In this document: positions 26,074 to 38,000 of the stretch, in pieces
Position numbering within the stretch: position 1 is the stretch's first letter
How the letters are laid out: each line of letters opens with the position of its first letter
Assembly (NCBI GenBank): GCA_034096865.1
Contig: JAWQFJ010026760.1
Span: 2,501 to 66,500 of the forward strand
Source of the DNA: Theodoxus fluviatilis
Lineage: Eukaryota; Mollusca; Gastropoda; Cycloneritida; Neritidae
Direction of reading: 5' to 3'
DNA: 64,000 bases
Program-made: the position numbers and the translations under genes
Notes under the pieces: model-generated
Told to the model about the DNA's origin: nothing
What the model saw: only the letters and a program-made list of their open reading frames with translations
Database searches by the model: none

Positions 26074-29000
26074 ATGGCCGATGTGAGAGGTGTTCGACTT
26101 CTCTCCGACCTGAATAATGCTTTTAGAAGAGATCCCAACATGTATGTAACTCATTCCTTACTGCACGAGATGATCTCATATGCCATCTTACTGTTCACGC
26201 CACAATTGTGAAATGCTGTCCAACCCTGGACTGATATGCCCTTTTCCATTTTCTATTAACGAAGATTGCTTCGTTTACTTTATTAGATTTTCTTAAGTTA
26301 ATGCTTAGAGTGAATAGAGTGACACATCAACCTGTGATTGATTTTAGCAAATTTGTATTGATTTCATGCATTATAGTACAACGAATTGTTGCCTTCTCTT
26401 AATATTGAAGAAAGCGGACGATATTTGTTTCGTGTCGAGGAAGAAGTCGCGAATGCTTGTGGAAGAATGACGTGTAACTACTAGGCATTATGATATTGTG
26501 GAGCAGACTGTTAACACTTTCCTTTCTTGACACGTATGCCTTTGCCATTGGGAAGTATTGTTTGCTTTGGGTTTTCCTCCATCCTTATCCCTATCGTCTG
26601 CTCACTTTCGACTTCATCATCAGACGTGAACATGTAACATAGCCGTGTGTGTGTGTGCGTGCGTGCGTGCGTGCGTCCATTTAGCAGGTTGCAGCAATTG
26701 GTCACTCGCCAATCCCTTATGGTTTATTATTTAGTGATGAATATGACTTCCTGCCTGTGTTGGAGCCCAAACACAACAAAAGCCCATTGATTCTCATCGA
26801 GCACAAGCTGGGACTGGAGAGATGGAGCATCAAGGTGCTTTACCAGTTTGCATACAACAAACTCATGGCATGGCGAGCGAAGGAGACTAGCTCTAAGTTT
26901 CTTGGTGAGTTGACATTTCTTTTTCCTGTTTATTTTGTTACTTTTTCTTACTTTTATTTGTTTGTGATTAACATGCCTCTAAGTCTAATACCATTCAGTA
27001 CTGCTAAAGCTATTTATCTGGCAGGGATCTTTTTTGGGGGGTTCTTTTTTTGCTGTTGTTTTCTCCAAATTTGGCATTTGTCTTATCCAAATACAATAAA
27101 GATTAATGATGCTAATGTGTAAATGTTTCCTTTAGTTGGAATAATGAAGAAAATTAGAGTGAAATGTTGTTGTAACTTTCTTTCTTACCAACATTGTGTA
27201 CTACCCAGAATACAGTCCTCGCGTGATAAACAATGATCAGCAGAAAGACGTATCTTTTGTGTATCAACTTTTCAAATACATTGACACTTGACATTTTATA
27301 GCTGTGCAGGACACCTCTCCCTCCCTCGTCGACACAGGCTTTCATGGTTTGCACTTGCAGATTCCTGTGAACTGATGGCCTTGACAAGAGCTGTGCTTCT
27401 GGTCAACCCTGACGTCTACACAGCATGGAATGTACGGTGAGTTTTTCTTGTAGTCTACACAGCATGGAATGTACGGTGAGTTGTTCTTGTAGTCTATAGA
27501 GCATGGAATGTATGGTGAGTTGTTCTTGTAGTCTACACAGCATGGAATGTATGGTGAGTTGTTCTTGTAGCCTACACAGCATGGAATGTACAGTGAGTTG
27601 TTCTTGTAGTCTACACAGCATGGAATGTATGGTGAGTTGTTCTTGTAGTCTATAGAGCATGGAATGTATGGTGTGTTGTTCTTGTAGTCTATAGAGCATG
27701 GAATGTATGGTGAGTTGTTCTTGTAGTCTATAGAGCATGGAATGTACGGTGAGTTGTTCTTGTAGTCTATAGAGCATGGAATGTATGGTGAGTTGTTCTT
27801 GTAGTCTATAGTGTTACAGCCCAAAGGGGTTACAACATTGTTGTCTATTTGAGAGATAGACTAACTCTAATTATTCATCCATTCACTTTCCTTTCGTTCT
27901 CAACAAAAGACACGGAGGGGGATAGAATGTCGAATATTTGGATTATCAGAATCTTCCTGCAAAAACATGCAACATATTAGAATAACTAGTTTCTTCATGG
28001 ATTAGCAAGTATCAATTATTAATAAAAGTCCAGATAACTGTTCATCTTCATTCACGAAACAAGAGAAAAGAGTTCAATGTTCCTGGTACGTCGTTATCAG
28101 TGTCAGAGAGAGTTTCGTTCTTTATCAGTGTCAGAGAGAGTTCATTATCAAACACAGGGGGACAGAGGGAGAACAAGTTTCATTTCTACTCATCACGGTG
28201 TTGTCTTCAGGACCAGGAGGGGTAGGGAACCACAGTGTTGATCCTTCTTGTGGCCAGGAGGTTTTTCTCTCCCTCCACCGCTTCCTTGAAAAATACCGTC
28301 AAGCATCCAGGCAACGGACGGAAGTCGAGAATCTGTATTTCCCACCAGGGATTGGGTCCGGCTGACTAGCGGTCAGCCAGGCGTTGAAAGTGCTCAGTCC
28401 CCTCAGATCACGCCGACAAATCCTCGCCGACAATCCTCGGTGCACCAAGGGGTCATGACCAAGACCCCATGAACAGAGAATCTCTCCCGTGTTTTCATTG
28501 CCACTTCCAAACTGGCCTTTCGAGATTCGTTCTCCCTCCCCAATGACGTCATTCAGCAAGTGACGTAGGACAGAGACGAGAATCAATTAGTCAAGTATTA
28601 CTCGTTCTCTCTGAGTACCAACGCTATTTCAGTTCACCACGTGCCGCACTCCCAGGTGGTCAGCCATCACCCATCACACCTCCCTTCCTCTTTTGAGAGA
28701 TTTCTTTAGGGACTTAATAAGAAAAGAAATCTCGTACAAGGAATCTCACAATTTACTGTCTGATCAGTCAAAACCTAGGCTGGTCAGAAACATTGAAAAA
28801 TATATATACTAAATTCACCTTTAAAACACATGCACAAGCAAAAAGTCTTGCCACAGTTGGCATACAAAACACGCAAATCTAAAAGCTCTTTGCCTGATAG
28901 TTTTCCAACGATCAAAGATATAATGCTATTCAAAAAGAGAAATGGGTTGTGGTCAGTGTTAACCTGCACCAAAGATTATGTAACCTATAATCTTTGCCTG

Positions 29001-35000: not shown

Positions 35001-38000
35001 GTCTATAGAGCATGGAATGTATGGTGAGTTGTTCTTGTAGTCTACACAGCATGGAATGTATGGTGAGTTGTTCTTGTAGTCTATAGAGCATGGAATGTAT
35101 GGTGAGTTGTTCTTGTAGTCTATAGAGAATGGAATGTATGGTGAGTTGTTCTTGTAGTCTACACAGCATGGAATGTATGGTGAGTTGTTCTTGTAGTCTA
35201 TAGAGCATGGAATGTATGGTGAGTTGTTCTTGTAGTCTACACAGCATGGAATGTATGGTGAGTTGTTCTTGTAGTCTATAGAGCATGGAATGTATGATGA
35301 GTTGTTCTTGTAGTCTATAGAGCATGGAATGTATGGTGAGTTGTTCTTGTAGTCTATAGAGCATGGAATGTATGGTGAGTTGTTCTTGTAGTCTATAGAG
35401 CATGGAATGTATGGTGAGTTGTTCTTGTAGTCTATAGAGCATGGAATGTATGGTGAGTTGTTCTTGTAGTCTATAGAGCATGGAATGTATGGTGAGTTGT
35501 TCTTGTAGTCTATAGAGCATGGAATGTATGGTGAGTTGTTCTTGTAGTCTACACAACATGGAATGTATGGTGAGTTGTTCTTGTAGTCTACACAGCATGG
35601 AATGTATGGTGAGTTGTTCTTGTAGTCTATAGAGCATGGAATGTATGGTGAGTTGTTCTTGTAGTCTATAGAGCATGGAATGTATGGTGAGTTGTTCTTG
35701 TAGTCTATAGAGCATGGAATGTATGGTGAGTTGTTCTTGTAGTCTATAGAGCATGGAATGTATGGTGAGTTGTTCTTGTAGTCTATAGAGCATGGAATGT
35801 ATGGTGAGTTGTTCTTGTAGTCTATAGAGAATGGAATGTATGGTGAGTTGTTCTTGTAGTCTACACAACATGGAATGTATGGTGAGTTGTTCTTGTAGTC
35901 TATAGAGCATGGAATGTATGGTGAGTTGTTCTTGTAGTCTACACAGCATGGAATGTATGGTGAGTTGTTCTTGTAGTCTATAGAGCATGGAATGTATGGT
36001 GAGTTGTTCTTGTAGTCTATAGAGCATGGAATGTACGGTGAGTTGTTCTTGTAGTCTACACAGCATACAGTGTAAGGTGAGTTGTTCTTGTAGTCTATAG
36101 AGCATGGAATGTATGGTGAGTTGTTCTTGTAGTCTACACAGCATGGAATGTATGGTGAGTTGTTCTTGTAGTCTATAGAGCATGGAATGTATGGTGAGTT
36201 GTTCTTGTAGTCTACACAGCATACAGTGTAAGGTGAGTTGTTCTTGTAGTCTACACAGCATACAGTGTAAGGTGAGTTCAGAGTTGTTCTTGTTGTCCAC
36301 ACCACATACAGTGTAAGGTGAGTTGTTCATGTAACCTTCATAACATGGAATGCAAAATTAGTCATTCTTGTTGTCCACATAACATACAGTGTAAGATGAG
36401 TTGTTCTAGAAGTCTACACACCATGGAATGCAAAGTGAGTTATTCTTGTTGTCCACACTACATACAGTGTAAGGTGAGTTATAGCCTACTCAAGGTGGAA
36501 TGCAAAGTGAGGGTTTTTTTTTTGTCCTACTCAACATAGAATACAAGGTGAGTTGTTCTAGAAGTCTACACAACATGGAATGCACAGTGAGTTACATGTA
36601 CTCTCGTAGTCCACACCACATACGGTGTAAGGTGAGTTATAGTCTACACAAGGTGGAATGCAAAGTGAGTTGTTTTAATTTTTGTCCTACTCAACATAGA
36701 ATACAAGGTGAGTTAATTAAGTTGTTTTTGTGGTTTACACAGCATGGATTATAAAGTGATTTGATTTGTAGTCTACACAACATGGAATGCAAAGTGAGTT
36801 ATTCTTGTTGTACAGAATACTGTGTAAGGTGAATGGAATATAAGGTGGGTACCCAACATGGTATATAGGGTGAGTTGTTTTTTTAGTCTACACAGCAAGG
36901 CCCATCAACATTGAATGAAGAGAAACATATTGGTGTGAGGAAAATATATGCACTATTTAGAGTTCTCTATATGATTGTAGTGTATGGGTAATGAGTTGTT
37001 GTGATTTTTTAAAAGCTGAAGACCTAATTTCAGAAGTGTGAGTTTGTTGTTATTGTTGTTATTTTTAATTTCTGCAGTTGTTCTTGCTGCATTGTTTTTG
37101 TCATAATTGCTTTCATCAGTATTGCTGTTTTTGTCATATCATCATCATCATCATCATCATCATCAACAACAACAACAACAACAACAACAACAACAACAAC
37201 AAAAGTAGTGAAAGACATTGGAAGGAACATTGGTACATAACAATGTTTACATACACCTGCTGCCCATAGCTACCTTTTTTTCATTAGAAACATGTGACTG
37301 ATAGCTTGTGCCTCATTCCTGCAACTCATCAACACACCTGTATGATAATTTTATGTTAAGAGTAATGGGGAGCCAGAGACAACTGAGTCTGAATGCCGAG
37401 TTTGGTTTTAAACTCTGGCCTGACCTGTGTGGAGGATGCTTTAACAGCATGTAATCTCTGGCCTGACCTGTGTGGAGGATGCTTTAACAGCATGTAATCT
37501 CTGGCCTGACCTGTGTGGAGGATGCTTTAACAGCATGTAATCTCTGGCCTGACCTGTGTGGAGGATGCTTTAACAGCATGTAATCTCTGGCCTGACCTAT
37601 GTGGAGGATGCTTTAACAGCATGTAATAGACAACTTATCTTTTTGGGTTTTTTTGCAGGAAAGAACTGATTGAAACTGGTGAGCTGACCATTGCCGATGA
37701 TTTGAAACTGGGTGCTCTGATTTTGACCAGGCATCCCAAGAGCACAGAGACCTTCATCCACAGGTAGGATGAGAAGTGATTGTTAAAGAGTGCTCTATAC
37801 TATAGTGTGTTATCCATGTATACCTGTTTTGAGGAATGTGTGTGTGCTAGTACCTATATATGAAGGGCTTGCCTCCACTATTGATGACATTGGTGTGACA
37901 ATTATAATATATATAATTTTGTCCACATGCCACTGAGATTATGCACCACATAATATTCTGCATATTACTTTCTTCTTTTTTTCAAGCAACTTTTTTGTGC

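Follow-up and report, generated by a model that had tools for sequence, protein, structure and literature searches.

The DNA analysed here (the window, 64,000 nucleotides (nt) of Theodoxus fluviatilis contig JAWQFJ010026760.1) carries on its + strand part of an orthologue of PTAR1, and a minisatellite of 39 base pairs (bp) begins at the junction of exon 3 and intron 3 of this gene. The joined translation of exon 2 (in part), exon 3 and exon 4 aligns over 95 of 95 residues with PTAR1 chains of the PDB; one of them, 6j74_A, which we take to be human, gives an E value of 8.3e-22 and 80 bits over all 95. The alpha subunit of Rab geranylgeranyl transferase reaches merely 23 bits over about 34 residues. 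By this better match than to other prenyltransferase alpha subunits, the gene is, judged from its predicted product, PTAR1. The residues TAWNVRKELI across the exon 3/exon 4 joint are identical to those of PDB PTAR1. The arginine codon of AWNVR/KELI is divided as CG/G by intron 3 (27437-37658, 10,222 nt), whose donor reads ACG/GTGAGT. A motif scan points to a likely further PTAR1 exon at 39255-39545, with the motif NYHAWSHR near 39465. The exons used are as follows.

26802-26904, + strand: PTAR1 exon 2 (the part used in the alignment), matching 6j74_A, with donor TTG/GTGAGT at 26905
27361-27436, + strand: PTAR1 exon 3, 76 nt, by PTAR1 protein match, final codon CG/G
37659-37763, + strand: PTAR1 exon 4, by PTAR1 protein match, closing intron 3

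A minisatellite built on the exon 3 splice junction

The array starts at the end of exon 3, runs to about 36897 and falls into blocks of different character.

27415-27453, + strand: founder unit of 39 bp, made of 22 nt from the end of exon 3 and 17 nt from the adjoining intron 3; true donor at 27437
27414-27811, + strand: exon-proximal block of 10 units including the founder, 8 of them with GGTGAGT (the true donor and 7 decoys)
31724-36239, + strand: main homogenised block of 39-bp units, GGTGAGT in 99 of 117
33898-34883, + strand: stretch holding all 14 units of 37 bp, interspersed with 39-bp units
36240-36897, + strand: old, diverged tail, 16 units scored, with a terminal partial unit

Tandem Repeats Finder (TRF) reports a period of 39 at 27414-27811 (10.2 copies, score 670) and at 31724-36278 (117.7 copies, score 8067, 95% matches), and a looser fuzzy anchor, which also counts the founder and the decayed tail, finds 142 units. 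These figures refer to one assembled haplotype, in a window without N. Counting the true donor, the array contains 114 copies of the heptamer GGTGAGT, whereas the window outside it has 4 on its + strand and 1 on its - strand; TTCTTGTAG has 124 copies in the array and 0 elsewhere in the window. A chance origin of the array is no issue, and with head-to-tail units of about 10-100 bp and high identity it is a minisatellite. No convincing copy of the unit lies outside the array within the window, where three fuzzy matches have up to 7 edits in 27 nt. The array closes with the partial unit TCTACACAGCA at 36887-36897, and at the copy junction a single base (G) is in common with the sequence left of the founder. 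Fourteen units measure 37 bp because the AG of GTGAGT is lost (GGTGTTG, no donor), and this donor-less form has itself been amplified.

Between the exon-proximal and main blocks lies a mobile element.

27812-31723, - strand: long terminal repeat (LTR) retrotransposon, 3.9 kb, within one array unit, with LTRs and the target duplication ATAG
29490-30623, - strand: gag-like open reading frame (ORF) of the insert, with SCAN (Pfam PF02023, E 4.8e-10) and CCHC zinc-knuckle (PF00098, E 1.7e-4)

Its LTRs (27812-28678 and 30857-31723) are 867 bp each with 3 differences, an identity by which the insert is judged young. The insert ends in TG...CA (TGTTACAG...ATCACA) and is flanked by a 4-bp target duplication, ATAG, derived from the array unit; LTRs, ends, duplication and protein domains all fit an LTR retrotransposon with a SCAN-type gag. 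No pol-like ORF is present inside the insert among the listed ORFs of 110 aa or more. A 16-bp tandem array occupies 29060-29489 of the insert.

An earlier note on this DNA had traced the unit to the end of exon 3 (22 nt) and the adjoining start of intron 3 (17 nt), naming the founder at 27415-27453 as the real PTAR1 junction. This is borne out exactly, and the residues that the founder codes are identical to PDB PTAR1. The note had further placed the amplified donors at 27415-36896, as a long ladder of near-identical competitors. The far end is essentially right and the main block is indeed homogenised, but 27812-31723 is the retrotransposon and from about 36240 the units are old and diverged.

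Strength and coding consequence of the repeated donors

Donors were scored with a matrix of the Shapiro-Senapathy type and by pairing energy against the 5' end of U1. By the matrix, 113 downstream GT sites equal or exceed the true donor in score; before GTGAGT, 98 of them have ATG, 6 ACG, 8 AAG and 1 AGG. Such donors number 20.2 per kb in the array, whereas the + strand outside it has 0.09 per kb (5 sites). The exon 3 donor scores 9.74 bits, the exon 2 donor 8.44 and the exon 4 donor 8.63. The energies of U1 pairing are close: the true donor reaches -9.4 kcal/mol, the ATG type -9.2 and the AAG type -10.7, and the donors that end exon 2 and exon 4 reach -9.2 and -10.7 kcal/mol, respectively. 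The ATG type thus comes out marginally weaker than the true donor by energy and marginally stronger by the matrix. Six of the eight sites of the stronger type, AAG/GTGAGT, sit in the tail. The more than one hundred decoys of the earlier note are borne out by the 113 sites; the 14 units of 37 bp are without a donor. The picture of a long ladder of competitors survives in part: the decoys are as strong as the true donor, but the insert divides the array, which leaves exon 3 with just 7 full-strength decoys in the nearest 400 nt and puts all others more than 4 kb away. No known RNA family was found in 26500-38000 at gathering scores.

The coding consequence of a wrong choice is uniform, as had been claimed: any downstream donor gives CGG TGA.

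27438-27440, + strand: in-frame TGA if any donor beyond the true one is used (CGG TGA)

A working PTAR1 mRNA would in practice come from the first donor alone, because all the others add this TGA. Production of functional PTAR1 therefore requires sufficient use of that donor.

Origin of the array and the meaning of its donors

Exon 3 is the source rather than the product of the array, because its residues are identical to PTAR1 and unit 2 has a single difference from the founder in 39 sites. Of all 39-bp units ahead of 36240, 111 with the founder, 107 have 2-5 differences from it. Runs of 9 consecutive units recur without change 51 and 48 units further on, a recurrence partly due to one common unit type, which alone yields runs of 8. 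In the tail, the G at donor position -1 has become A in 7 of 16 units, weakening the site. A tandem duplication across the junction would have copied the donor together with the exon edge, and ordinary minisatellite turnover (slippage or unequal exchange) may then have expanded the array to about 142 units. Coding selection on exon 3 would fix the exon-proximal end, and the far end has decayed.

On these grounds we consider it probable that the array is a minisatellite born at the junction and mostly passive, in which the first donor dominates and the near decoys leak a little to decay. The first donor would win by lying at the natural end of the exon. The few full-strength decoys within 400 nt would be used at a low level, and the resulting transcripts would be removed by nonsense-mediated decay. 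By exon-definition reasoning, these near decoys, with extensions up to about 350 nt, would be the sole realistic competitors in the present allele; the units more than 4 kb off, past the retrotransposon, would be essentially passive.

Several points weigh against this interpretation. The anatomy of the array, its founder, the donor scores, the stop codon and the insertion are direct observations; the turnover mechanism, the preference for the first donor, leakage and decay are deduced from sequence. The 300 nt of 27361-27660, covering exon 3 and the first units, fold worse than 200 of 200 shuffles (z +2.27), and therefore the donors are not obviously hidden. At position -2 of the tail donors, A has taken over in 14 of 16 units and makes the site stronger wherever -1 is still G. 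Moreover, the donor positions +1 to +6 appear retained there, something not expected of a wholly passive array: with tree and parsimony counts over 16 tail units (two partial end rows of 18 excluded) and the founder as reference, 5 changes were counted versus 11.8 expected (random-position p about 0.015), and 2 of 39 windows were as low as the donor window. In this alignment GTGAGT is intact in 9 of 16 units and the acceptor-like TTGTAG in 1 of 16.

The retention was re-examined with four references under four scoring schemes each, rows with more than 9 gaps being dropped to leave 16 rows per setting. The p values were 0.007-0.017 with the founder and 0.015-0.031 with one tail type as reference, and 0.085-0.115 with the main consensus and 0.063-0.103 with the other tail type; with CpG positions omitted, p rose to as much as 0.137. 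The donor window ranked among the lowest 2 of 39 in 14 of the 16 settings, among the lowest 3 in one and among the lowest 6 in one; depending on the reference, 8 to 11 of the 16 units had an intact GTGAGT. The retention is therefore a weak, alignment-dependent sign, with p of 0.06-0.14 under two of the four references. We lean towards the absence of selection on the array donors; selection is disfavoured by the amplification of a donor-less form to 14 units and by the lost G at -1 in 7 of 16 tail units.

These results also bear on the readings in which the array has a function. As the earlier note suggested, donor choice might control the level of PTAR1: the true donor and the ladder would compete, and decay-targeted splicing, tuned by the number of units, would set the level. 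The 113 decoys at or above the score of the true donor, the in-frame TGA immediately after decoy use and the better survival of GTGAGT than of TTGTAG in the tail speak for such a device. However, the donor-killing deletion was amplified, the retention is non-significant with two of the four references and most decoys are separated from the exon by the retrotransposon and by over 4 kb. We regard this reading as unlikely. That the array is actively kept as a donor ladder, its U1 sites selected while the acceptor-like ends decay and its unit number tuning productive splicing from the first donor as a rheostat that varies with copy number, seems to us decidedly unlikely. It is also conceivable that U1, perhaps with U2 factors, binds the units without splicing, and thereby slows the removal of intron 3 or shields it from early polyadenylation. 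Most units do have GTGAGT-like and TTCTTGTAG sites, and the decoy exons in intron 4 of OGT promote its retention and are rarely spliced in (PMC12017769). Yet the OGT decoy measures about 150 nt with weak sites, whereas the potential exons of the array are 22 nt with poor pyrimidine tracts; judged as decoy exons, the units score well at their donors and poorly at their acceptor-like ends (two units measured). In addition, TTGTAG decays in the old units, and the + strand of intron 3 contains only two A[AT]TAAA signals, of which each LTR of the young insert supplies one. We give this possibility a slim chance.

The proposal in the earlier note that each unit is a potential microexon fared poorly. 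In mock joins, the reading frame is lost with a single 22-nt microexon or a pair of them, and the common ATAG type leads at once to TAG; three of the ACAC type restore the frame and could give PTAR1 22 extra residues. The TTGTAG ends of two measured units have pyrimidine fractions of 0.59 and 0.53, whereas the exon 3 and exon 4 acceptors reach 0.65 and 0.76. A unit contains just 17 nt of intron. Microexons are unlikely because of these poor pyrimidine fractions and the short intron piece, and with weak acceptors, and TTGTAG in 1 of 16 old units, we attach almost no credence to functional ones. An error of assembly, in the copy number or in the entire long block, is very improbable as well. Long tandem arrays are in general prone to such errors, but here the units differ from one another, a 37-bp subfamily and an old tail are present, the retrotransposon has a 4-bp target duplication taken from a unit, and no N interrupts the window.

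The window as a whole is rich in minisatellites: 19 TRF rows, picked by hand with a period of 10 or more and with microsatellite-like rows excluded, cover 18.8% of it, 7,046 bp of this outside the 39-bp array. Its minisatellites of 21, 27, 43 and 80 bp are long homogenised arrays like the 39-bp one; their comparison with exons covers the left edge of the 27-bp array (by eye) and the position of the 43-bp array. The 43-bp minisatellite (5 copies, 37409-37627) also lies in intron 3 and ends 31 nt upstream of exon 4. The 27-bp minisatellite (120 copies, 57255-60479) begins about 85 nt past a likely exon end (by eye), presumably that of a short-chain dehydrogenase exon, which it resembles. A 420-aa ORF on the - strand crosses the 21-bp minisatellite (55 copies, 17274-18428). 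The antisense ORFs of the 39-bp array (732, 523 and 493 aa, the 732-aa one at 31712-33910) were rejected as genes; they arise mechanically because the 13-codon unit has no stops. An ORF at 1033-1770 has no Pfam match at 1e-3 and presumably resembles the C-terminus of a reverse transcriptase protein from a non-LTR retrotransposon.

Relation to known splice-site repeats and decoy exons

The locus offers a natural experiment in splice-site choice, with one true donor facing 113 copies predicted to be equal or stronger and with every wrong choice marked by a stop. Normal splicing of PTAR1 would mean that where a donor lies relative to the exon counts far more than its strength; otherwise, the array would be a ready-made control of splicing by copy number. 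The locus also illustrates that selection on coding sequence can anchor a minisatellite at one end. Among the matches listed in the literature on PTAR1 and intron, no repeat was described.

In the human gene IFI6 (6-16), a 12-bp unit is present in about 26 copies, and the alternative donors add in-frame residues. This minisatellite is reported to provide multiple splice donors, two downstream repeat units serving as donors between exons two and three (PMC4526556). The supposition that nothing of this sort had been described is thereby overturned: because of IFI6 the kind of the array is already known, and its size, mixed exon/intron unit and stop outcome differ. The likeness is that the units carry donor sites; the PTAR1 array begins with the exon-intron junction of its own gene, and later units retain the donor. 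In this sense, the PTAR1 array reads as a very large, new instance of a splice-donor minisatellite. Compared with IFI6, it has a 39-bp unit of exon and intron, about 142 units, 113 full-strength decoys and always a stop. Donor use is reported for the IFI6 units, whereas for the decoys of the PTAR1 array it is predicted.

The decoy exons of detained introns are the nearest mechanism by which splice sites that are not used could still matter. Intron 4 of OGT has a decoy exon of roughly 150 nt, for which two 5' and two 3' sites are predicted (PMC12017769). As in that case, non-productive intronic splice sites in PTAR1 could engage the spliceosome, and inclusion would bring a stop (PMC12017769). 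Unlike the OGT decoy, the PTAR1 array consists of more than 100 tandem copies of the gene's own donor, with 22 nt from each acceptor-like end to the donor.

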